The notes below the pieces were generated by a model that had not been told where the DNA came from, made no database searches, and worked only from the letters and a program-made list of their open reading frames with translations. Positions 195 to 33,315 of a stretch of DNA of 39,827 nucleotides are shown piece after piece. Positions within the stretch are counted from its first letter, which is position 1. Each line of letters opens with the position of its first letter. Origin of the DNA: Bacteroidaceae bacterium (lineage in GTDB: Bacteria; Bacteroidota; Bacteroidia; Bacteroidales; Bacteroidaceae); NCBI GenBank assembly GCA_017471185.1, contig JAFUVZ010000008.1:1-39827 (forward strand). Direction: 5' to 3'. The translations under genes and the position numbers were made by a program.

Positions 195-214
195 AACAAG
201 AACCGTACTTATCA

Positions 215-393
215 CCCAGGGCGATGCCCTGGGCTATGTGCTTCCTGCCCCTTCGGGGCGCAATACCCGCCATCCACACACCCAGGGCGATCCCTGGGCT
301 ATGTGCTTCCTGCCCCTTCGGGGCGCAATACCCGCCATCCACACACCCAGGGCGATGCCCTGGGCTATGTGCTTCCTGCCCCTTCGGGGCGCA
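215..393. repeat. Three tandem copies of a 65-66 bp palindromic repeat (REP-like), element B
   Basis: Copy 1 is 215-280, copy 2 is 281-345 (one base shorter in the first hairpin), and copy 3 is 346-393 (cut short after GGGGCGCAA). Each unit has two small palindromes: CCCAGGGCGATGCCCTGGG, and CTGCCCCTTCGGGGCGCA with the hairpin CCCCTTCGGGG. The copies are almost identical, so the duplication is recent or kept by homogenisation. The overlapping short open frames across these units are by-products of the repeat and are not genes. They lie downstream of the phosphotransferase gene that ends at 459. Confidence 0.85.
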
Positions 394-458
394 ACAATGA
401 AAGAACCGTTCCTTTTGTGCAAGAGAATGAACGGAGGAAGTACGAACGTAGTACGGAG

Positions 459-3328: not shown

Positions 3329-3889
3329 TTATTTATTCTCTTCCGTTTCCGACACGAAGCAAGCCACAAGGCCATAGGTGATGGTGGGTCGAATCCAGAT
3401 TTCCGTAAGCAGATAATCGGTATATTCATTGACAGGATTCAGGTAAATGACGTAATTGTAAAGTGCGGCAATAACCATATCAATGACACAGATCATCCAC
3501 AGGTTGCGCTTGGAGTAGCTCTTCCATTTCTTGCGGGCATAGAAGAAGGTAAGCATGAGAAGCAGCAAAACAGATAATGTCAGACACACCAGATGGAGAG
3601 GATAACTTGCCAACGGGGGCGGAAAGAGGATGTCGCGCAACAATACCGTGACGCCTACGCATACGGAACACCAGTAATTAAAGCGTTGCGTATCAAGTTG
3701 ATTAAAGAAATACAACCACATCATCACCAGACAGGCGATGTAGAACACATTAAGCACTAACTCGGGCCATGCCTCAACCAGGCCGAAATGACTGACTCCA
3801 TAAAGCATGATGCCCACAGAGAGCATTCCTGCCACAGCTGTAATCACAACGTCTAAGACTTTCGCTTTCTTCTTGTATCTTGTCTCCAT
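3329..3889 (-). CDS. Unknown polytopic membrane protein
   Basis: This 186-residue protein has about five or six hydrophobic segments (near residues 10-30, 40-60, 70-90, 98-116, 128-148 and the C-terminal part) and a short positively charged N-terminus (METRYKKKAK). I recognise no family motif. It has its own -7 element at 3935-3942 and ends about 70 bp before the nucleotidyltransferase start. That gene has a separate promoter, so a functional link is possible but not shown. Confidence 0.7.
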   Translation of the reverse strand: METRYKKKAKVLDVVITAVAGMLSVGIMLYGVSHFGLVEAWPELVLNVFYIACLVMMWLYFFNQLDTQRFNYWCSVCVGVTVLLRDILFPPPLASYPLHLVCLTLSVLLLLMLTFFYARKKWKSYSKRNLWMICVIDMVIAALYNYVIYLNPVNEYTDYLLTEIWIRPTITYGLVACFVSETEENK

Positions 3890-3934
3890 ATACTATTGAA
3901 GTTACAAAAAAACAAACATACGTTATTTCGGCTA

Positions 3935-3942
3935 CAAAGATA
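3935..3942 (-). promoter_or_regulatory. Bacteroidetes -7 promoter element
   Basis: The minus strand reads TATCTTTG, an exact TAnnTTTG match, about 45 bp upstream of the ATG at 3889. It would drive the membrane protein gene. Confidence 0.55.
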
Positions 3943-4031
3943 CACATTTATTATGATAATCTCACAAAATTTTCAGACCACACTTGCAGAATAAGAGACC
4001 GCACGGAACGAATCGTCACTGCTGCGTCTTG

Positions 4032-4062
4032 GAATAAGGCTGCAAAACACGCAGCCTCATTC
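4032..4062 (-). terminator. Stem-loop at the 3' end of mltF
   Basis: GAATAAGGCTGC (4032-4043) pairs with GCAGCCTCATTC (4051-4062) across a 7-nt loop, with one mismatch. The stem overlaps the mltF stop codon at 4057-4059. No strong T-run follows in the minus direction, so this is a weak intrinsic terminator or a 3'-end-protecting hairpin. Confidence 0.5.
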
Positions 4063-5448
4063 TTTTATCACTTCTTTATAACGGTCAAAGCGTTCTAATA
4101 TATCACGCACGAAATTAAAGGTCTCGATACCACGGAAATAGCCGTGCTTGCAGACCGGATCTGAGAAATATTGCTCATTGCTCTTCAGCAACATATATTT
4201 CTCCACATTATCTTCCCACACATACTTGTCAGCGCCATATTTCTCTGCCAAAGCCATCGCATCCTGCACATGTCCTGTGCCAGAGTTATAGGCAGCGAGG
4301 ACGAATTTCAGGCGCTCATGCTGAGGTACACTGCCGAACGACTTGGCTGTCAGCCCAATATACTTTACTGCGCCCTTGATGCTTTCTTCCGGGTTCTGCT
4401 CCTTTCCTGCAGGAACGCCCATTGCCTTAGCGGTGTTTGGCATCAGCTGCATAAGTCCTTTAGCTCCTGCCCAAGAAACCGCCGTAGTATCAAAATTTGA
4501 TTCCGTATAGGCGAGTGAAGCCAACAACCTCCAGTCCCAACCTATCTCTCGGGCGTATTGTCTGAACAGATTGTCATAAGGAGAGATCTTTCCTTGAGAG
4601 ACAGACATGATGGGGAAGAAAACCTTCATCTTGCTCTCTTCAAAATAACGCTTCATGCTGGCGGAATAATTAGGAGAGGTAACATTCTTCTGATGCCACT
4701 CATCAACTGAAGCCGCCAGTTCTCTACATTCCTTCCTGACCGCCCATGAGGCACGCTGGTCGTGGCTCACGGCGAGGTTAATGTCCAGATTAGGATAATA
4801 AGTGAGGTTCAGCTTCGCCACATCATCATCAGCCACCGTATAACTGATCTTTCCTTGTGCCACCTGGGTGATCAGGTCTTCCAGCGACAGACTATCGCTC
4901 TCAACATTCCGGATAATGATTCCCCCACCCAATTCTTTATTGAGGTTTTGCATGCGCTGGAAATACCTGCCCGGTTTCGTATAGACCTCCTTCCCCAAAA
5001 GTTCTGTCACATCCTTCAGAGGTCCGGGCTTCCAGGTATTGCGTTGCACCAGCACCTGATGGGTGACGGCCTCTTCTCCACAATACTCTATGCTGTCTTT
5101 CAGTTCGTTAGTAACAGGAAGATTATATGCGATTAAGTCGGCCTCTCCCTTCAGGAGTTTCCTTGACAGTTCCTGGACATTATTTGCCACCACAACCTCA
5201 AGTTTCACTCCCAGGTAATCGGCGAACTGCCGGGCCAGTTCGTACTGAAAACCCATTTCCTCGCCACGGTACTGAAAATAGCTCGTGGAGCTATAGAGCG
5301 TGAGTACCCTCAGCACTCCGCTATCCTGTATCTGTTGCAAGTCATACTGCTGTACCACAGGCTCTTTGTGCCGCAGGTTCAAACAGCCCGCAACGACAGA
5401 CAACACTATCACCACGGCCAGTGTCCAAACTGCTCTTCTTCCTCTCAT
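4057..5448 (-). CDS. mltF: Membrane-bound lytic murein transglycosylase F-like lipoprotein
   Basis: This 463-residue protein has a lipoprotein signal (lipobox VAGC, Cys22), so it should be lipid-anchored in the periplasm. Residues about 40-270 form a periplasmic solute-binding (SBP type 3) domain starting at GVLRVLTLYSS. Residues about 285-460 form a lytic transglycosylase (SLT) domain with YTESNFD holding the catalytic Glu316, followed by AKGLMQLMPNTA and the LAAYNSGTGHV motif. The enzyme cleaves the MurNAc-GlcNAc bond with 1,6-anhydro formation. It follows udk by 15 bp and is probably co-transcribed with it; pairing with a uridine kinase has no obvious functional logic. The length agrees with the MltF family. 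Confidence 0.92.
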   Translation of the reverse strand: MRGRRAVWTLAVVIVLSVVAGCLNLRHKEPVVQQYDLQQIQDSGVLRVLTLYSSTSYFQYRGEEMGFQYELARQFADYLGVKLEVVVANNVQELSRKLLKGEADLIAYNLPVTNELKDSIEYCGEEAVTHQVLVQRNTWKPGPLKDVTELLGKEVYTKPGRYFQRMQNLNKELGGGIIIRNVESDSLSLEDLITQVAQGKISYTVADDDVAKLNLTYYPNLDINLAVSHDQRASWAVRKECRELAASVDEWHQKNVTSPNYSASMKRYFEESKMKVFFPIMSVSQGKISPYDNLFRQYAREIGWDWRLLASLAYTESNFDTTAVSWAGAKGLMQLMPNTAKAMGVPAGKEQNPEESIKGAVKYIGLTAKSFGSVPQHERLKFVLAAYNSGTGHVQDAMALAEKYGADKYVWEDNVEKYMLLKSNEQYFSDPVCKHGYFRGIETFNFVRDILERFDRYKEVIKE

Positions 5449-5463
5449 GGCTACACCTTATTA

Positions 5464-6072
5464 TTACTTCAGATGCTTCTCTATGAACATGGTCAGGATC
5501 TTGATAGCCATCTTGTTTTTTCCACCCTGAGGCACAATCAAATCGGCATATCGCTTGGTAGGTTCAATGAACTGTTCATGCATAGGCTTAAGAATCCTGA
5601 CATAGCGTTCCATCACATTCTGATAGGTCCTGCCACGCGAAACCACATCACGTTCTACGTTGCGAATCAGGCGCACATCCGGATCTGCATCGACGAAAAT
5701 CTTCAAATCCATCATATCCCGGATTTCCTTGTCATAGAGCGACATGATACCCTCAAAGATTATCACCTCTTTAGGCTCGATATGGATGGTCTCCGGCAGG
5801 CGGTTGCATTCCAGATAGGAATAGGTAGGCTGCTCAATGCACTTACCTTCCTTCAGCAAAGCAATATGCTCACGCAAGAGTTCCCAGTCGAAAGCATTCG
5901 GGTGATCGAAATTCATGTTGAACCTTTTCTCTAAAGGTATATCACTCAAATCCTTGTAATAAGAATCCAGAGGCAAGAGCACAACTTCGTCTTTGCCCAG
6001 CTTCTCAACGATTTTCTTCACGACGGTGGTTTTTCCCGAACCTGTGCCGCCAGCAATGCCAATAATTAACAT
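5464..6072 (-). CDS. udk: Uridine kinase
   Basis: This 202-residue P-loop kinase starts MLIIGIAGGTGSGKTT, with the Walker A motif at about 8-16. Other family marks are the LPLDSYYKDL loop, NFDHPNAFDWELL, and IIFEGIMSLYD in the NMP-binding region. Uridine kinase phosphorylates uridine or cytidine to the monophosphate in the cytosolic pyrimidine salvage pathway. The length is typical of Udk. It is the first gene of a unit with mltF (15-bp gap). The upstream region to 6287 is shared with a divergently transcribed Dabb-domain gene. Confidence 0.92.
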   Translation of the reverse strand: MLIIGIAGGTGSGKTTVVKKIVEKLGKDEVVLLPLDSYYKDLSDIPLEKRFNMNFDHPNAFDWELLREHIALLKEGKCIEQPTYSYLECNRLPETIHIEPKEVIIFEGIMSLYDKEIRDMMDLKIFVDADPDVRLIRNVERDVVSRGRTYQNVMERYVRILKPMHEQFIEPTKRYADLIVPQGGKNKMAIKILTMFIEKHLK

Positions 6073-6137
6073 CTTCCAAATATGATATTAAAAAAAATTC
6101 ATTATCTTTAAATAAGATAAGCTGCATTTCAGGATAA

Positions 6138-6157
6138 AAAATAAGCCAGCTTATTTT
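6138..6157. promoter_or_regulatory. Short perfect palindrome in the udk/Dabb divergent region
   Basis: AAAATAAGC and GCTTATTTT form a 9-bp perfect inverted repeat around CA. On the minus strand it is followed by a T-rich run, but no minus-strand gene ends here. It is therefore more likely an operator or 5'-UTR hairpin than a terminator. Confidence 0.35.
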
Positions 6158-6174
6158 GTTCTCCATTCAATTTA

Positions 6175-6214
6175 AATAAAATTCTCACGCTCGGAAATGA
6201 TAATAAAATTCTCA
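6175..6214. repeat. Two direct copies of AATAAAATTCTCA upstream of the Dabb gene promoter
   Basis: The 13-mer occurs at 6175-6187 and 6202-6214, 27 bp apart start to start. The second copy ends 29 bp before the -7 element at 6243. The spacing suits tandem regulator sites, but this could also be a chance AT-rich duplication. Confidence 0.35.
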
Positions 6215-6242
6215 TTTCACTCACTAAATCGAATTTTTGCAT

Positions 6243-6250
6243 TATCTTTG
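6243..6250 (+). promoter_or_regulatory. Bacteroidetes -7 promoter element
   Basis: TATCTTTG followed by C matches TAnnTTTG and lies 38 bp upstream of the Dabb-domain ATG at 6288. Confidence 0.6.
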
Positions 6251-6287
6251 CAGCAAATATAAATAAAAACATTAAACTAACAAAGTT

Positions 6288-6584
6288 ATGGTTAAACACA
6301 TTGTGCTTTTTAAGCTGAAAAATGAGATTTCGGCAGCTGAAAAGGAGTCTGCAGCCTTGAAATTCAAGTCAGCTATCGAGGCTCTGCCTTCCGTTATACC
6401 TTCTATAATTAAAGTGGAGGTTGGTATAAACATCAATCCAGACGAGCAGTGGAACATAGCGCTCTACAGCGAGTTCAACACCTTAGAGGAGGTAAAGGCT
6501 TACGCCGTTCATCCTGCTCATGTTGCAGCAGCCAAACTGCTTGCTGATGTGAAAGAAAGCAGAGCCTGCGTGGATTATGAGTAG
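6288..6584 (+). CDS. Dabb (stress-responsive A/B barrel) domain protein
   Basis: This 98-residue single-domain protein begins MVKHIVLFKLK, the usual Dabb start with a conserved early His. It continues with the amphipathic helix (EKESAALKFKSAIEALP), the strand IKVEVGININ, and the HPAHVAAAKLLADV helix near the C-terminus. Dabb proteins are small ferredoxin-like dimers, and the role of most bacterial members is unknown. It has its own -7 element and is followed 52 bp later by dsbD. The family is clear from the motifs; no function is claimed. Confidence 0.88.
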   Translation: MVKHIVLFKLKNEISAAEKESAALKFKSAIEALPSVIPSIIKVEVGININPDEQWNIALYSEFNTLEEVKAYAVHPAHVAAAKLLADVKESRACVDYE

Positions 6585-6636
6585 ATACGGGTTTCGAGCT
6601 ACAAGTAGAATGTTATTGCTTGGCAAATAAGATTAT

Positions 6637-8640
6637 ATGAAGAAACTACTATCCTTCTTAGGGCTGATATTGACAGCCGTAGTGGTTCAGGCTCAGATTC
6701 TGGATCCTGTTTCTTTCCGCACTGAATTCAATAAGGTGTCTGATGATGTGGCAGAGATTGTGTTTACTGCCACTATTGATCCGGGCTGGCACATTTATTC
6801 CACCGACCTGGATGAGGGTGGTCCTATCGCCGCGACTTTCAATGTTGAGAAAGCAACAGGCATACACGAAGACGGGAAGCTGCTGCCCGTGGGCAATGAA
6901 CAAGCTGTATATGACAAACTGTTTGAGATGCAGGTGCGTTATTTTGAGAATACCGCCAAGTTTGTGCAACGTGTCAAACTGGAAGGAGGCGCTTACCGCA
7001 TAGAGGGCTATTTAGAGTATGCTGCCTGCAATGATGAGAACTGCCTGCCTCCGAACGAGGTGCCATTTATGTTTACCGGCACTGCAGAGGTAACAGATGA
7101 CGGGCAAACAGACTCTACCCTTGAAGAGGTGAGTGACAAAACAGATAACACAGAAGAGGAGAAAACATCAGTTCTGGATTCTGCCGACGACCAGCAATCA
7201 GTGGCTAATAACCTTTGGGCGCCTGTCGTTGATGAGCTTCGCTCTTTCGGAGAGTCAGCTGGCACTGTTGACCGCTCATGGATATACATTTTCTTCACTG
7301 GTTTCTTAGGAGGACTTTTGGCATTGTTCACCCCATGCGTATGGCCTATCATCCCGATGACCGTCAGCTTTTTCCTGAAACGCAGCAAAGACAAGAGCAA
7401 GGGAATACGTGACGCAATGACATACGGCCTCGCTATTGTGGTCATCTATGTAGGTCTGGGCCTGCTGGTTACGTTGTTGTTTGGTGCCAGTGCACTGAAC
7501 GCTTTATCCACCAACGCTATCTTCAACATCCTGTTCTTCCTGATGCTGGTAGTCTTTGCAGCTTCTTTCTTCGGGGCATTTGAAATCACGTTGCCCTCAA
7601 GCTGGAGCAACGCCGTTGACAGCAAGGCCGAACAGACCACAGGCCTGCTGAGCATCTTCCTGATGGCTTTCACCTTGGCACTGGTATCCTTCTCCTGCAC
7701 AGGTCCTATCATAGGGTTCCTGCTGGTGGAGGTTTCCACTTCAGGCAGCATTGCCGCTCCTGCAATCGGCATGTTGGGATTTGCCATCGCATTGGCTCTT
7801 CCGTTCACACTCTTCGCCTTATTCCCTACCTGGCTCAAGCAAGTACCTAAGTCGGGCGGCTGGATGAATGTCATTAAAGTATCCTTAGGTTTCATAGAGC
7901 TGGCTTTTGCCTTGAAGTTCCTTTCAGTAGCCGATTTGGCTTATGGATGGCATATTCTTGACCGCGAGACCTTCCTGGCATTGTGGATTGTAATCTTCGC
8001 CTTGCTGGGGGTCTATTTGTTAGGCAAGATCAAGTTCCCGCATGATGACGATGATAATCGCGTCAGTGTGCCACGTTTCTTCTTGGCATTAGCATCTTTA
8101 GCTTTCGCCGTCTATATGGTGCCAGGCCTGTGGGGTGCGCCACTGAAAGCGGTCAGTGCCTTCGCTCCCCCGCTTCACACGCAGGATTTCAACCTGTATA
8201 AGAATGAAGTCCGTGCCCAGTTTGACGATTATGACTTGGGTATGGAATACGCAAAACGAGTGGGCAAGCCCGTCATGCTCGACTTCACAGGTTATGGTTG
8301 TGTAAACTGCCGTAAGATGGAGCTGGCGGTATGGACAGACCCAACGGTGGGGAATCTCATGAACAATGAGTATGTGCTTATTACCCTGTATGTGGATAAC
8401 AAGACCAAGTTGCCTGAACCTATCAAGGTAACGGAAAATGGCAAGGAGCGCACTTTGCGAACCTTAGGCGACAAGTGGAGCTACCTGCAGAGGGTGAAGT
8501 TCGGAGCCAATGCGCAGCCTTTCTACATACTGATTGATAATGATGGCAAACCACTGAATAAGTCGTATTCCTACGACGAAGAAATTTCAAAATACGTAGA
8601 TTTCTTACAGACGGGATTACGGAATTATCAACAAAAATAG
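6637..8640 (+). CDS. dsbD: DsbD-type thiol:disulfide interchange protein
   Basis: This 667-residue protein has an N-terminal signal peptide ending near residue 20 and a periplasmic DsbD-N-like domain with C131 and C136. A low-complexity acidic linker (about 155-190) follows, then a membrane domain with about eight segments containing TPCVWP (C234) and SFSCTGP (C354), the electron-carrying Cys pair. The C-terminal thioredoxin-like domain carries CVNC (C555, C558). DsbD moves electrons from cytosolic thioredoxin across the inner membrane to periplasmic thiol proteins. All three redox pairs are intact. It is followed 35 bp later by the PurF-like gene, which has its own -7 element. Confidence 0.9.
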   Translation: MKKLLSFLGLILTAVVVQAQILDPVSFRTEFNKVSDDVAEIVFTATIDPGWHIYSTDLDEGGPIAATFNVEKATGIHEDGKLLPVGNEQAVYDKLFEMQVRYFENTAKFVQRVKLEGGAYRIEGYLEYAACNDENCLPPNEVPFMFTGTAEVTDDGQTDSTLEEVSDKTDNTEEEKTSVLDSADDQQSVANNLWAPVVDELRSFGESAGTVDRSWIYIFFTGFLGGLLALFTPCVWPIIPMTVSFFLKRSKDKSKGIRDAMTYGLAIVVIYVGLGLLVTLLFGASALNALSTNAIFNILFFLMLVVFAASFFGAFEITLPSSWSNAVDSKAEQTTGLLSIFLMAFTLALVSFSCTGPIIGFLLVEVSTSGSIAAPAIGMLGFAIALALPFTLFALFPTWLKQVPKSGGWMNVIKVSLGFIELAFALKFLSVADLAYGWHILDRETFLALWIVIFALLGVYLLGKIKFPHDDDDNRVSVPRFFLALASLAFAVYMVPGLWGAPLKAVSAFAPPLHTQDFNLYKNEVRAQFDDYDLGMEYAKRVGKPVMLDFTGYGCVNCRKMELAVWTDPTVGNLMNNEYVLITLYVDNKTKLPEPIKVTENGKERTLRTLGDKWSYLQRVKFGANAQPFYILIDNDGKPLNKSYSYDEEISKYVDFLQTGLRNYQQK

Positions 8641-8641
8641 C

Positions 8642-8649
8642 TATCTTTG
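8642..8649 (+). promoter_or_regulatory. Bacteroidetes -7 promoter element
   Basis: TATCTTTG followed by C starts 2 bp after the dsbD stop codon and 34 bp before the ATG of the PurF-like gene. Confidence 0.55.
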
Positions 8650-8675
8650 CAACCTAATTATTAAACGCTACATTT

Positions 8676-11423: not shown

Positions 11424-11447
11424 ACATTGTACATTGTTCAATTATTA
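11424..11447. repeat. Short heptanucleotide tandem run before the M48 gene
   Basis: ACATTGT occurs twice in tandem (11424-11430, 11431-11437), followed by TCAATTA and TTATGAA in the same 7-bp register, running into the ATG at 11447. It resembles the longer heptamer arrays at 29620, 30352 and 32075. Confidence 0.5.
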
Positions 11448-23175: not shown

Positions 23176-23350
23176 GGTCGCTAAGTACGGGTAAGCGGGG
23201 CGTTTAGTTCAGGTAAAAGGGTCGCTTACTTCAACTAATAGGCTTGATACTATCCAACCATAGGTTTGATACTTGCTAACATATGACTTACTTCCGCTAA
23301 TGCATAGGGTTACTTCCGCTAAACCTGGCATCAGGTACCGCTAATCGATG
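23176..23350. repeat. About eight degenerate tandem units of ~21 bp
   Basis: Units begin near 23176, 23198, 23219, 23241, 23263, 23284, 23307 and 23327. Typical units contain TTACTTCCGCTAA or variants: GGTCGCTTACTTCAACTAAT, GGTTTGATACTTGCTAACAT, GACTTACTTCCGCTAATGCA, GGGTTACTTCCGCTAAACCT. The period is 20-23 bp, with conserved GG, TACTT and CTAA positions and drifting spacers. It ends 50 bp before the -7 element of the next gene. It is not coding in any consistent frame. Possible roles are a protein-binding array or a decayed repeat. Confidence 0.6.
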
Positions 23351-28588: not shown

Positions 28589-30418
28589 TCATCCCTTTTT
28601 ATTCTTAATCATTTTCTCCGTTTTCTTGATTTTCTTCCAGGCTTCCTTATACTGCGGGCATAGCGCTACAGCCTTGTCATAATTGCGCAAGGCAGCCTCC
28701 AGCATCTCGTGTCTGACACACTCATCGCCCATCTGCACATACTCGCGGGCATATTTCATCAAAGCCTTTTCTTTGTCCTGTGCCTCCTGCTTGAGTTGCG
28801 CCACCTCGTTCTTCAGCGTATTAATGACAGAGAGCTTACGCCTCAGCAATCTCTTTACCAATGGTTTCTCGATATCATAGCGGGCATGGATGGCCTTGAA
28901 GAATGAATCGAGGAACTGCTGGAAGTCCCCTTTGTCGAAGGCTGTTGCAGCGGCAGCATACTCTATGTCGGCACGGGCTTCCTTGAGTGCCTTGTCCACC
29001 GCCTGCTGGTTGTTGAATCTTTTGGCAAACTGTGTGATTTCTGGTCGCACGAAGATATCGCTCCGGCTCAAAGGATTGGTAAGTTGGATACCATCCAAAG
29101 AGGTGCATCGACTTAATGCCACGTATGCCTGACCACCGGCAAAGACACCACCTGTGAAATCTATCACTACACGGCTGAAGGTCAGACCCTGACTTTTATG
29201 TACAGTGATGGCCCATGCCAGACGGATGGGGAACTGCGTGAATGTACCCAGTTCCTCCTCTTCTATTTCTTTCTTTTCTTCGTTGTATGTGTATCTGATG
29301 TTACGCCAGGATTCCGTCTTGACATCCACCTCACTGCCATTGTCGGTCACCACATACAGGGTTTCCTCCTCCGGGTCAAACCCTGTGACGGTGCCTATTG
29401 TGCCGTTCACCCAGCGTTTATCAAAGTCATTCTTGACGAATATCACTTGCGCCCCAGGCTTCAAGACCAGTTCTAATGAGGTGGGCAAGCTGTTTTCGGG
29501 GAAGTCACCATGAATCTCTCCCATGAAAGTAAACGGATCTCCAGGCAGTTCATTCAGTTTCTTCTCATTGATGAAATCTACCTGATCCCTGCGGGTAACA
29601 AGGGTAATATACATGGGAGATTGAACATTGAGCGTTGAACATTGAACATTAGACTCTGAAGGCTGGCTTTCTTTCAAAGATGTGATGTATCTTGTATTGA
29701 GCAACTGCAAGTCCTTGCCACTGATATCATTGTTACGAATACGGTCGAGTACCCCGACGAACACGGGATCACTCTGTCGATAGACATGGGTAAGTTCGAT
29801 AGCCACCAGTTCTATCTGGCTGAACACCCTGGCAGAAAAGAAGTAAGGGTTAGGATAAAAGCGGTTTAATATCTCACGTTCGTCAGCCTTCACCACAGGC
29901 TCCAGCTGGAAGGCATCACCCACCAGCAGCAACTGTTTACCTCCGAAAGGTTCTCTCAGGTTATGGGAATAGACACGCAAGATGCGGTCAACGGCATCAA
30001 TGATGTCAGCCCTGACCATTGAGATCTCGTCAATAATGACTAATTCCAGTTCTTCTATAAGCTTGCGATGCGGTTTGCTGTATTTCAGGAACTCATGGAT
30101 GCGGCCTTTCTGTAGGGAGAGATTGGGATCATCGGGCAGCAGAGGGTGAAATGGCAACTTGAAGAAACTGTGCAGCGTACTTCCTTCTGCATTGATGGCA
30201 GCGATGCCGGTAGGTGCCAAAACCACATGCTTCTTCTTGGTCTCCTGGCATACTTGCTTAAGAAAGGTGGATTTACCCGTACCCGCCTTCCCCGTCAGGA
30301 AAACCGACTGGTGGGTATATTTCACCAGATTCATAGCGTTCTGCCATTCAGCGTTGACCGCTAAACGTTGACCGTTGACCGTTGAACTCTGACCGTTTTC
30401 CATCACCTCATTATCCAC
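28589..30418 (-). CDS. PIF1/RecD-like superfamily 1B DNA helicase with a TPR-like tail
   Basis: This 609-residue protein has Walker A GKAGTGKST (43-51), Walker B IIDEIS (128-133), GDAFQLEPV (168-176), and the C-terminal UvrD_C_2/RecD motifs TVHKSQGLTFSRVVIDF and YVALSRCTSL. These ATPases unwind DNA 5' to 3'. Residues about 540-600 form a coiled coil and one TPR-like repeat (EMLEAALRNYDKAVALCPQY). Residues 9-24 (GQSSTVNGQRLAVN) and about 254-268 (SESNVQCSTLNVQSPM) are encoded by tandem heptanucleotide arrays and look like insertions; a core start near residue 24-29 is possible. The Sua5/YciO gene overlaps or closely follows its stop. Confidence 0.9.
   Translation of the reverse strand: MDNEVMENGQSSTVNGQRLAVNAEWQNAMNLVKYTHQSVFLTGKAGTGKSTFLKQVCQETKKKHVVLAPTGIAAINAEGSTLHSFFKLPFHPLLPDDPNLSLQKGRIHEFLKYSKPHRKLIEELELVIIDEISMVRADIIDAVDRILRVYSHNLREPFGGKQLLLVGDAFQLEPVVKADEREILNRFYPNPYFFSARVFSQIELVAIELTHVYRQSDPVFVGVLDRIRNNDISGKDLQLLNTRYITSLKESQPSESNVQCSTLNVQSPMYITLVTRRDQVDFINEKKLNELPGDPFTFMGEIHGDFPENSLPTSLELVLKPGAQVIFVKNDFDKRWVNGTIGTVTGFDPEEETLYVVTDNGSEVDVKTESWRNIRYTYNEEKKEIEEEELGTFTQFPIRLAWAITVHKSQGLTFSRVVIDFTGGVFAGGQAYVALSRCTSLDGIQLTNPLSRSDIFVRPEITQFAKRFNNQQAVDKALKEARADIEYAAAATAFDKGDFQQFLDSFFKAIHARYDIEKPLVKRLLRRKLSVINTLKNEVAQLKQEAQDKEKALMKYAREYVQMGDECVRHEMLEAALRNYDKAVALCPQYKEAWKKIKKTEKMIKNKKG
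29620..29661. repeat. Heptanucleotide tandem array inside the helicase gene
   Basis: Six consecutive 7-bp units in one register are ATTGAAC, ATTGAGC, GTTGAAC, ATTGAAC, ATTAGAC and TCTGAAG. It encodes helicase residues near 254-267, outside the conserved motifs. Because 7 is not a multiple of 3, gaining or losing one unit would shift the reading frame. Confidence 0.75.
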
Positions 30419-30450
30419 TATCCTTTATTAATTATCCATTCTCCATTACC
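30352..30450. repeat. Heptanucleotide tandem array spanning the helicase start and the HAD gene end
   Basis: Units of 7 bp run almost without a break: CGTTGAC, CGCTAAA, CGTTGAC, CGTTGAC, CGTTGAA, CTCTGAC, CGTTTTC, CATCACC, then after a 1-bp slip CATTATC, CACTATC, CTTTATT, AATTATC, CATTCTC and CATTACC. It covers the helicase start codon (30418), its first ~22 codons, the 27-bp gap and the last codons of the HAD gene (stop at 30446). Confidence 0.7.
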
Positions 30451-31243
30451 CAATTATGTGATAGTGTTTCAGTGCTTTAGCTACGCCATCATTATCCACT
30501 GAATCGGTAATAAAATCAGAAACGGCTTTGACACTGTCGAGGGCATTGCCCATTGCCACACCTACTGCGGCATGACGCAGCATTGGGATGTCATTGCCTC
30601 CATCGCCAAACGCCATAGTCTCCTCCAGACTGATGCCAAAAAAGTTGATAATCTCGTCAATGCCCTGTTGCTTGGTGCAGCCTTTGGTAGTGATATCCAC
30701 AAAAGCTGGATGCCATCGTCCCATCTCGCAGTCGGCTACAAGAGGCTGCAGTTCCGCCTCCTGCTTATCGTCTATGAAAGTAGTCAGCTGGAAGATGTCT
30801 TTTCCTTCAGCAATCGCTTCTTCCACTGTCTTTTCATCCACAACCACATCTACTTCCAACTGTCTGTAGAACAACTCTTCGAAGATATCTGCTTTATCAC
30901 AGATGCAGATGTCATGCTCTCCCACCACAATATTGGGAATACTCCTATCCTTAGCATAACGGGTGATGATATCCACGCTCTCAGAAGATATGGAATGTTT
31001 GCTGATAACAGTATCACCGGCAAAGCAATAAGCCCCATTCATGGTGATGTAACCATCTATGAGGTTCCTCTTTTCCAGTTCTTTCAGATTAGTAATAATG
31101 ACTTTGGGTCTGCCTGTAGCAATAAAAATCTGCACACCACGGGCTTTCGCCTCCTGGAGTGCAGCGACGGTAGAAACGGGTATCTGGTGAGTCTTGAAAC
31201 TCACCAGTGTCCCGTCAATATCGAAAAACAAAGCCTTTATCAC
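30446..31243 (-). CDS. Cof-type HAD-IIB family phosphatase
   Basis: This 265-residue HAD hydrolase starts [16 protein letters not shown], with nucleophile Asp8 and acid/base Asp10 in [13 protein letters not shown] (motif II) and [12 protein letters not shown] (motif IV) follow, with a C2B cap in between. Cof-type enzymes dephosphorylate sugar phosphates, nucleotides or flavin precursors. It begins with GTG, overlapping the nagB stop codon (GTGA), so it is translationally coupled to nagB and may act on a sugar phosphate. The substrate is not deducible from the sequence. Confidence 0.9.
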
Positions 31244-32034
31244 AACAGGTTACCAGCTTCAATATCTTTGAAATAACGGTAAGTACCCACCTTCAGCTCG
31301 TCGCAAGCGGCATCGTCACAAACGATGATGCCTTTCGGATGCAGCTGCAGAGCACTTACAGTCCACATGTGTGTAACGCCACCCTCAACGGCATGACGCA
31401 AAGCGCGTGCCTTGTTGTGGCCGTTCACAATGATCATCACTTCCTTGGCATCCATCACAGTACCTACACCCACAGTCAGCGCAGTCTTAGGCACCTTGTT
31501 CACGTCATTGTCGAAGAAACGAGAGTTGGCGATGATGGTGTCTGTCGTCAGTGTTTTCTGGCGGGTACGTGAAGTCAGTGAAGATCCAGGCTCGTTGAAA
31601 GCGATGTGTCCGTCAGGACCGATACCCCCCATGAAGAGGTCAACGCCACCGTAAGACTTAATCTTTGCCTCAAAACGAGCGCACTCAGCATCCAGGTCAG
31701 GTGCGTTACCGTTCAAGATGTTAGTATTCTCTGCCTTAATGTTGATATGGCCAAAGAAATTGTTCCACATAAACGAATAGTAGCTCTCAGGGTGCTCTTT
31801 AGGCAAGCCCACATACTCATCCATGTTGAATGTAACGACATTCTCAAAAGAAACTTTTCCTTGTTTGTTCAGCTCAATCAGCTCATGATACATGCCCAGA
31901 GGTGAAGACCCTGTAGGACAACCCAGTACGAATGGCTTCTCTGCCGTTGGTTTAGCGGCGTTAATCTTGAAAGCCACATAGTTGGCAGCCCATTTGGATA
32001 CCAACTGATAATCCGGTTCAATAATTACTCTCAT
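31240..32034 (-). CDS. nagB: Glucosamine-6-phosphate deaminase
   Basis: This 264-residue enzyme converts glucosamine 6-phosphate to fructose 6-phosphate and ammonia in amino-sugar catabolism. It shows [12 protein letters not shown] for phosphate binding, FNMDEYVGL with D72, and [15 protein letters not shown] with D141, H143 and E148, at the same positions as in the E. coli enzyme. SLTSRTR follows. It is translationally coupled to a HAD phosphatase and lies 90 bp after the flavodiiron gene. No exact -7 motif lies directly upstream, so it may share that transcript. Confidence 0.96.
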
Positions 32035-32074
32035 TTTCGTTCATTTTATTTTGTTAATAACACTGTTTTACATC

Positions 32075-32123
32075 CGTTGAACGTTGAACGTTATTCATTA
32101 TTCATTCTCCATTCTCCATTAGC
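32075..32123. repeat. Heptanucleotide tandem array between fprA and nagB
   Basis: Seven consecutive 7-bp units are CGTTGAA, CGTTGAA, CGTTATT, CATTATT, CATTCTC, CATTCTC and CATTAGC. They end 1 bp before the flavodiiron gene stop (32125-32127) and occupy most of the 90-bp gap to nagB. Unit sequences overlap those at 30352-30450. Confidence 0.75.
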
Positions 32124-32124
32124 C

Positions 32125-33315
32125 CTACGCCATTACCTCCTTCGCCATTGCCTCTGCCAAAGCCGCACACTGCTCTTCAACGCTTGCCAGCATACCCTGC
32201 TTCATCTCCACAGGCTCGCCTACCAAGGTGAAGTGACTTTTCTCGGCAAATTCTCCCAACAGGCCTACAGCCTTGCCTGCCCAACTGAATGAGCCGAACC
32301 ATCCTAAGAACCTGTCCTTGATGTCGCGCATCAGAATCTTGCTCAGGATAGCCTCAATCTCAGGATAGAGCTGGGTATTATAAGTGGGACTGCCGACAAT
32401 CAGTCCGTTATACTTGAAGATATCTGCCAGGATATAAGACGGATGGCTCTTGCTCACATTGTGCATCACTACATTCTTTACTCCTCTCGCCGTCAGTTCC
32501 TTGGCTATCTGTTCAGCCATCTGCTCGGTATGACCATACATGCTGCCATATACAATCACCACACCCTTGTCGGTGTCATAACGGCTCAGCCGGTCGTAGA
32601 TGCCAATCACCTTATTAATATTCTCAGTCCATACAGGGCCATGGGTAGAGCAAATCATCTGGATAGGCAGAGCACCTAATTTCTGCAATGCTTTCTGAAC
32701 AGGCGTGCCGTATTTGCCAACGATGTTGGCATAGTAGCGTATCATCTCATCCCAATACTTGTCGAGGTTGATCTGTGTGTCGAGCGGACCGCCGTCAACT
32801 GCTCCATAAGTTCCGAAAGCATCGGCAGAGAACAGCACCTGCTCAGTAGCGTCATAGGTCACCATCACCTCTGGCCAGTGCACCATCGGAGCCATATAGA
32901 ACGCCAGCTTGTGATGTCCCAGGTCAAGTGTGTCACCCTCCTTCACCACCAGTCGGTTGCTCTGCAGGTTATAATATCCGTCAATCATGCTGAAGGTCTT
33001 GGCATTGCCTACCACGGTCACTTCAGGATAATACTGTTTAATGAGTGCGATAGAACTGGAGTGATCAGGCTCCATGTGGTTCACAATCAAATAGTCTATC
33101 GGCTTTTCGCCCAAGATAGCCTGTATTTTCTGGAGGAAGATGTCGAAGAAACCGATTTCCACGGTATCCACCAGCGCTACCTTGTCATCATTTATGAGGT
33201 AAGAATTATAAGAAACGCCGTAAGGAATAGGCCACATGCCTTCGAAAAGATGGGTGCTACGGTCGTTTACACCCACATAATGAATCTTGCCTTTCAGCAG
33301 TGAGATATCTTTCAT
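32125..33315 (-). CDS. fprA: Flavodiiron protein (FprA family A-type flavoprotein)
   Basis: This 396-residue protein has an N-terminal metallo-beta-lactamase-like di-iron domain with NHMEPDHSS (H80, E82, D84, H85), VHWPEVMVTYD, SADAFGTYG and STHGPVW supplying the rest of the iron ligands. A C-terminal flavodoxin domain (about 255-396) contains VVIYGSMYGHTEQMAEQIA for FMN binding. These proteins reduce O2 to water or NO to N2O in anaerobes. It is first in the minus-strand series and has a -7 element at 33343-33350. Substrate preference cannot be read here. Confidence 0.93.
   Translation of the reverse strand: MKDISLLKGKIHYVGVNDRSTHLFEGMWPIPYGVSYNSYLINDDKVALVDTVEIGFFDIFLQKIQAILGEKPIDYLIVNHMEPDHSSSIALIKQYYPEVTVVGNAKTFSMIDGYYNLQSNRLVVKEGDTLDLGHHKLAFYMAPMVHWPEVMVTYDATEQVLFSADAFGTYGAVDGGPLDTQINLDKYWDEMIRYYANIVGKYGTPVQKALQKLGALPIQMICSTHGPVWTENINKVIGIYDRLSRYDTDKGVVIVYGSMYGHTEQMAEQIAKELTARGVKNVVMHNVSKSHPSYILADIFKYNGLIVGSPTYNTQLYPEIEAILSKILMRDIKDRFLGWFGSFSWAGKAVGLLGEFAEKSHFTLVGEPVEMKQGMLASVEEQCAALAEAMAKEVMA

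Follow-up and report, generated by a model that had tools for sequence, protein, structure and literature searches.

Heptanucleotide tandem arrays with restricted, species-varying words in a rumen Bacteroidaceae genome

The abundance of heptamers in bacterial genomes calls for an explanation, and the locus described here belongs to a clade that bears on it. The window, by which we mean the whole 39,827-nucleotide stretch analysed (positions 1 to 39,827 of contig JAFUVZ010000008.1, assembly GCA_017471185.1), comes from a rumen bacterium of the Bacteroidaceae whose genome is 2.76 Mb in 85 contigs and 80% complete. It carries degenerate tandem arrays of 7-nt units inside and between genes. What kind of repeat are these, and what makes and places them? 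Such arrays occur genome-wide, their presence differs by species, they are built from a few related words with a TT core, and different words stand at sites that species share.

Period-7 arrays in the window and in the genome

We divide the units into two classes, RTTGANN ('A') and ATTNTYC ('B'), in a common register RTTNNNC. Tandem Repeats Finder (TRF) and reading of the sequence confirm three period-7 sites in the window (29620-29661, 30352-30457 and 32075-32124), and in sliding tests over periods 2-30 only period 7 gave windows among periods 2-11. The arrays, with one short run, are:

29620..29661, minus strand: A-word array (ATTGAAC/GTTGAAC) inside a PIF1-like helicase gene; TRF reports 29620-29650 with 4.4 copies, degenerate to about 29661
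30352..30397, minus strand: A-word array (GTTGACC/GTTGAAC) at the unconserved helicase N-terminus, directly past the likely ATG at 30403-30401; TRF, 6.6 copies
30409..30457, minus strand: B-word array (ATTATCC/ATTCTCC) at the HAD-helicase junction; TRF, 6.9 copies
32075..32124, minus strand: composite A-to-B array in the gap that separates 'fprA' from nagB, some 40 bp before the start of nagB; TRF, 32075-32092 and 32091-32121
11424..11447, plus strand: short run ACATTGT ACATTGT TCAATTA before a peptidase M48 gene; about 2.4 units, too short for an array

The sequence-only reading that drew attention to this locus had listed four period-7 sites. TRF finds those at 29620, 30352 and 32075 to be real; the run at 11424-11447 is absent from its list (score 30), no separate chance test having been made. 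What had been taken for one run at 30352-30450 does have a period of 7 but consists of two adjoining arrays with different words (30352-30397 and 30409-30457). The proposal of a common 7-bp register and a single drifting family is borne out at 32075-32124, which reads GTTGAAC GTTGAAC GTTATTC ATTATTC ATTCTCC ATTCTCC ATTAG, so that A units (GTTGAAC) pass by way of ATTATTC into B units (ATTCTCC) within one RTTNNNC family.

The excess of period 7 extends across the genome. Three consecutive RTTNWMC units match 193 times in the whole 2.76 Mb, against 0 for the reversed control; with overlapping places counted, GTTGAACGTTGAAC (at most 1 mismatch) has 51 genome places against 1 for its reversed control, and CATTMTCCATTMTCCATT (at most 2 mismatches) 313 against 0. 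Requiring at least 17 of 21 lag-7 matches, we found 34 period-7 arrays in 424 kb, against 0 in one first-order Markov resample, and 72 in a sample of 824 kb, where the next basic period, 22, gave 23 arrays and the remaining basic periods from 3 to 13 gave 0-8 each, with echoes of period 7 at 14, 21 and 28. Array density is approximate because the sampled contigs are not random, having been picked from contigs listed by earlier pattern searches. The view that the arrays are low-complexity sequence arisen by chance, or an artefact of assembly, for which the 2.4-unit run at 11424-11447 might speak, is refuted for the three main arrays by the near-zero controls; the mean array length, 46-51 bp in three genomes from separate assemblies, is a further point against it, and overall we consider it highly improbable.

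Tandem 7-nt units beyond chance and dispersal over many loci, two marks of the long simple sequence repeat (LSSR) and short tandemly repeated repetitive (STRR) kind, are thus both present. The STRR sequences of heterocystous cyanobacteria consist of degenerate tandem 7-bp units at many intergenic loci per genome and are strain-specific. The likeness to STRR noted earlier stands up as a likeness by description (degenerate tandem 7-bp units at many loci), with the difference that here a TT-core family in Bacteroidaceae lies frequently over stop and start codons and inside genes. Three tandem heptanucleotides are mentioned for Calothrix (PMC4692102).

Restricted words that change between species

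Among the exact lag-7 runs of at least 10 in this genome, 78 of 80 contain the dialect core, against 10-15% expected for random heptamers, a contrast that is somewhat generous because the core expression was written after the words were seen. Within non-coding A arrays of this genome, mismatch is 2-3% at the TT (positions 2-3), 13-14% at positions 1, 4 and 5, and 20-26% at positions 6-7; sign tests for the TT core gave 31:2, 22:1 and 8:0 in three genomes (ties 5, 3 and 1). Slippage with a 7-nt polymerase contact has been proposed for heptanucleotide LSSRs (Mrazek et al. 2007, as reported in PMC4679880), and in one survey heptamers were the most abundant long simple-repeat class in most bacterial genomes (via PMC4679880). 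On our own reading of that model no strong word preference is expected, contrary to what these runs display; furthermore, LSSRs are defined as statistically long repeat series, whereas the arrays here are degenerate and word-specific. The slippage origin suggested from the sequence is therefore insufficient in its plain, generic form. Local duplication predicts likeness between neighbouring units, and unit similarity falls from 0.80 at lag 7 to 0.71 at lag 49 in this genome and from 0.81 to 0.66 in the related genome G104.

The longest strings common to different loci lie inside the range of eight order-7 Markov simulations in each of three genomes tested, those of 18-32 bases in our own genome being somewhat over the simulation mean, and recent multi-unit copying of arrays is thus not needed; this null is conservative because it was trained on the same arrays. 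These strings bear on the alternative that a mobile or repetitive extragenic palindromic (REP)/STRR-like element spreads ready-made arrays by copying. The common dialect, inverted array pairs around short cores (such as C8:8577-8664) and similar CCTACGCC flanks at three arrays would suit such an element, but besides the Markov-range strings no flank 8-mer dominates (over 70 arrays the most frequent ones stand at 4-6 flank positions, a few of them above expectation) and A-to-B boundaries are diverse. With neither conserved ends or core nor long strings common to the copies beyond the Markov range, the mobile-seed origin entertained earlier is unsupported, and we think spread by copying quite unlikely. 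The three CCTACGCC flanks, each beside the end of an array, are at window 32120-32132 and at C80:27505-27517 and C80:90820-90832 of the same genome; their 8-mer is not prominent in the flank scan.

The nearest named loci (L085-L092) come from rumen or omasum metagenome-assembled genomes of Bacteroidaceae or Bacteroidales, with helicase identities of 83-87%. The three-unit pattern matches 133 times in the whole genome of L085, 50 in L089, 10 in L090, 8 in L091, 6 in L088, 2 each in L087 and L092, and once in L086. Seven genomes farther away (from Bacteroides, another Bacteroidaceae, Phocaeicola, Dysgonomonas and Parabacteroides) gave 0 matches, and in three of them the control matched 1-3 times. 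Low counts stem partly from the use of other words, because the pattern was fitted to those of our genome: in G048, of the same genus, the reversed control (86) exceeds the pattern (53) over the whole genome, which suggests another heptamer dialect. The dominant words are AACATTG (TTGAACA), AATAATG and AATGGAG in our genome, AATGGTC (ATTGACC) in G100 and AATCGTC/AATTGAC/AATGGTC in G104. In the helicase tree, whose deeper forks are weakly supported, the array-poor L086, L087, L088, L091 and L092 form one clade (support 96/95) amid the others, which makes array loss or decay within that clade plausible. A search of 158 genomes of the genus turned up no second strain of the species, the nearest other DNA match being 83%.

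A scan of the phylum found at least one match in 114 of 395 genomes, with scattered rich genomes and a patchy distribution. Paludibacter, mentioned below, belongs to the Bacteroidales. TAACTGA direct repeats occur in Beggiatoaceae, cyanobacteria and five Bacteroidetes including Paludibacter (PMC4679880), and together with the phylum scan this makes the earlier statement that no defined equivalent was known in Bacteroidales too strong. Like our arrays, the TAACTGA repeats are heptamers, mostly intergenic, often near start codons and phylogenetically patchy, with close relatives having shorter, repeat-free junctions in several cases; unlike ours, they use one fixed word, related heptamers being rare as repeats in the surveyed genome, whereas here related words coexist and change between species (PMC4679880). 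Neither TAACTGA nor its rotations or complement appeared in the lists of each genome's commonest words, which held up to 25 entries. The GGGAATC / GGGGA(C/T)T heptamers of Xanthomonas and Nostoc form 186 and 183 degenerate arrays in two Xanthomonas genomes, where, as here, mostly the same genes flank arrays that differ in length and sequence between genomes and some arrays form inverted pairs (PMC4692102); GGGAATC-type words are G-rich and quadruplex-forming, whereas ours are AT-rich. The tandem repeats of Borgs are likewise fast-evolving, independently arising and protein-changing, but sit on extrachromosomal archaeal elements (PMC9879509). No earlier account of our words in Prevotella, Bacteroides or Bacteroidetes was among the matches listed, which cover part of the literature.

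Turnover is clearest at conserved junctions. In 125 comparisons (72 distinct junctions of our genome, 13 carrying an array), an array was present only in our genome in 19, only in the relative in 4, in both in 9 and in neither in 93. The gap was longer in our genome in 17 of the 19 own-only cases, with a median of 23 bp. Where both species have an array, the commonest word differs in all 9 junctions, and only one shows a word that covers at least 4 windows in both. Copy-number or presence variation, a third mark of the LSSR/STRR kind, was thus observed, between species only. In the window, the helicase array at 29620-29661 forms an insertion within a variable loop; 6 of the 8 nearest relatives lack it, and L085 and L090 carry shorter, different inserts (AQLSIVNGE and GQSLIVNRQ, by eye like other heptamer words). 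The arrays do not show the conservation of ordinary coding sequence. The HAD-helicase junction has no array in L086, L087, L089 and L091 and an AATTGAT-type array in L088. Between fprA and nagB the words are AATGGAG/AATGAAT/GTTCAAC in our genome, ATTATTC/ATTGTTC-type in G104 and ATTGACG in G105, and the same test found no array in G100, G101, G102, G103 and G106; a fuzzy locus search at this junction missed 6 of 20 loci, our own among them. Several genomes appear to bear two handles, as judged by identical junction sequence (G012/G104, G177/G105, G026/G102, G157/G103, G147/G101, G164/G106), and one handle per pair was used both in the junction comparison and in the 155-array survey below.

A template peculiar to each species would yield related words all over a genome and other words at corresponding sites in another species, as is seen here. 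The arrays might accordingly be written by a telomerase-like or other reverse transcriptase (DRT10-like) or a similar enzyme, the products being captured at chromosome breaks. DRT10 makes tandem-repeat complementary DNA on the A-B-A' template of a non-coding RNA, and its templates vary between systems (PMC12632851); the absence of shared strings beyond the Markov null fits as well. However, a search of 12 genomes (two of them seemingly one and the same) gave RVT_1 in only 2, and of the genomes with at least 30 pattern matches only G028 had it. It was not found in our own genome, which is 80% complete with a DGR-like locus at a contig edge, nor in most array-rich genomes, the assemblies being incomplete. 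We judge templated writing improbable.

The locus just mentioned resembles a diversity-generating retroelement (DGR) and lies on contig C6 (L258) at 375-773, 812-1351 and 3755-7006, comprising a bAvd-like gene, a small MutS_I-like gene (its match slightly below the Pfam cut-off) and a large protein whose C-terminus gives a sub-threshold Lcl_C match; the contig may stop short of its reverse transcriptase. The genes of this locus have heptamer arrays beside them, and a minus-strand open reading frame (ORF) at L258 1518-1964 is PIN-domain-like by eye.

Placement and reading frames

The genes beside the window's arrays, assigned by domain match, are:

28589..30418, minus strand: PIF1-like helicase gene (PIF1 domain), host of two arrays; the ORF opens at GTG 30418, ATG 30403 being likelier
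30446..31243, minus strand: HAD-family hydrolase (PF08282), stop codon within an array
31240..32034, minus strand: glucosamine-6-phosphate isomerase family gene, nagB-like (PF01182)
32125..33315, minus strand: protein with ODP metallo-beta-lactamase and flavodoxin domains ('fprA', flavo-diiron-like)

The HAD stop codon TAA (30448-30446) is part of the sense unit TAATGGA of the array at 30409-30457. On the sense strand the array at 29620-29661 consists of GTTCAAT-type units and encodes ...SNVQCSTLNVQ...; arrays thus add peptide such as NVQCSTLNVQ to proteins, and gene calling in these genomes is affected. The helicase ATG was chosen by eye from comparison with L089, and matched helicase residues start at 1-22 in L085-L091 and at 22 or later in most farther relatives. 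Rfam gave 0 matches in the window at the gathering threshold.

Gene junctions hold 57 of the 70 merged arrays in our sample, and the other 13 are intragenic, although gene calls (made by our own simple script) cover 89% of the sequence. Because 7 and 3 have no common factor, a stop-bearing unit closes every reading frame and a stop-free unit closes none, a simple account of how arrays survive over stop and start codons. We surveyed 155 arrays in eight genomes of the clade (17 between convergent or divergent genes, 5 at contig edges). Closure in all three frames was found for 24 of 26 arrays over a gene 3' end; conversely, 20 of 25 over a gene 5' end were open in at least one frame, as were all 10 N-terminal and all 29 interior arrays, intragenic arrays being necessarily so. 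Of the wholly intergenic co-directional arrays, 19 of the 24 closer to the stop were closed, against 4 of the 19 closer to the start (Fisher p = 2e-4, in a post hoc test that depends on our simple gene caller). In four other genomes of the phylum the few co-directional arrays were 5 closed and 1 open near stops and 3 open and 0 closed near starts; of these genomes G289 had no arrays, N runs polluted the spectrum of G244 and G365, and one N run was possibly counted. The order within composite arrays, read on one strand, is A then B at 28 places and B then A at 3 (the two patterns searched being similar, not equal), a polarity that the frame rule accommodates: closed then open along transcription, in either gene orientation.

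Arrays occupy 14 of 149 convergent, 65 of 811 co-directional and 5 of 145 divergent gaps (p about 0.056 for convergent and for co-directional against divergent), from which we claim nothing; nearness to stop or start has no effect (35 vs 36); and the replication strand relative to GC skew (21 vs 39) is confounded with gene strand and likewise not claimed. A role as bidirectional terminators was considered and rejected, most listed convergent arrays being single, though some convergent junctions carry inverted arrays. One of these, C8 (L166) 8577-8664, holds inverted A-word arrays between convergent genes that form a strong hairpin (minimum free energy -38.6 with flanks); at its counterparts in G101 and G104 a different sequence stands that by eye is also hairpin-like, and it is possible that an array replaced a terminator there. 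Arrays at C13:55277-55318 and on C20 (L183 7060-7098 and 19378-19416) lie near gene 5' ends with signal-peptide-like starts by eye, and for two of these three the corresponding position in G100 carries an array too, built from the word of that genome.

Orientation and word structure bear on a further explanation, that the arrays are clustered binding sites of a trans-acting DNA- or RNA-binding factor, with selection holding the TT core and the 7-bp spacing while the dialect drifts with the factor. A core that hardly varies beside variable positions that keep their place in the unit, the word specificity of the runs and the nine shared junctions with different commonest words all agree with it; so does the orientation of B and AB arrays at co-directional junctions, which in four genomes carry AATGGAG-type words on the sense strand in 17 cases and the opposite in 4. 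There is an analogous proposal for TAACTGA repeats upstream of Beggiatoaceae start codons, with S1, Csp or Csr-type binders suggested (PMC4679880). However, at co-directional junctions the A-words favour neither orientation clearly (19 same-sense, 27 antisense), which argues against a signal at the RNA level, in 19 of 28 comparisons there is no array in the relative, and the 13 intragenic arrays are awkward for binding sites. We regard this explanation as possible but unlikely.

How the arrays may arise

The account that we favour, with about an even chance of being right, is that these are heptanucleotide simple-sequence arrays of the STRR/LSSR kind in a word-restricted Bacteroidaceae form, produced by a word-biased, slippage-like process and passed through a coding filter. 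Repeated local duplication of 7 nt, by slippage or unequal exchange, would make the arrays, and a preference for RTTGANN/ATTNTYC-type seeds would give each genome its own dialect. Reading frames would then filter location and orientation, the pattern being that observed above and the cause a proposed one: the stop-bearing orientation, closed in all three frames at any copy number, would be tolerated over gene ends, and its reverse complement, stop-free in all frames and with ATG in every frame for CAATGTT-type words, over starts and inside genes. Period-7 dominance, turnover between species, the likeness of neighbouring units, Markov-range strings and the frame rule support this account. No dedicated function is required, although the word constraint leaves room for one.

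Several observations weigh against it. Local duplication and a coding filter explain turnover, gradients and placement, but leave the fixed core and the dialect common to the whole genome unexplained; generic slippage should produce a wide variety of words, which the 78 of 80 runs contradict, and the genome-wide uniformity of words has no explanation from these data. The near-invariance of TT is unexpected under unselected slippage, though T is the least variable base overall and the invariance could be partly mutational. In G100 unit similarity is nearly flat, 0.82 at lag 7 and 0.79 at lag 49. The frame rule is partly circular, as arrays over stops or inside genes must fit it and the wholly intergenic set alone is independent, and the A-to-B polarity does not need a coding constraint where an array stops short of the start codon, as at 32075. 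Mismatch-repair loss as the driver was rejected, since the presence of MutS does not fit array load: MutS_I is strong in G028, G101, G102, G104, G105, G106 and G107, gives no more than a weak match in G000 (in the DGR-like locus) and none in G100 and G103.

A binding factor or a word-specific generator could explain the dialect and the fixed core. It is possible, though rather unlikely, that a species-specific trans-acting factor, either a writing enzyme or a binding protein for a TT-cored heptamer, might impose one dialect on hundreds of independent arrays, so that arrays at the same junction would be rewritten when the dialect changes and would act as frame-independent stop/start cassettes at gene boundaries. 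The clade has sister species rich and poor in arrays, shared sites at which the words differ, and a vocabulary confined to a core, and together these can separate generic slippage from a word-specific cause. Whichever applies, the repeat system evolves fast and belongs to a kind known in general, of which its restricted, species-varying words are probably a new form.

Other repeats accompany the heptamers. Window 23176-23322, a stretch without called genes, holds 22-bp period repeats. Period-22 arrays, the second commonest basic class here (23 by the looser test, 15 by a stricter one), also occur in some relatives and use several different words, some palindromic (CCCTCATGAGGG). At window 213-394 a 65-bp unit in 2.8 copies carries CAGGGC...GCCCTG and CCCC-TTCG-GGGG palindromes. 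CAGGGC-N0-6-GCCCTG occurs 24 times in 824 kb of our genome, once in 308 kb of G100 and 0 times in the G101 and G104 samples; the palindrome is enriched in this species.

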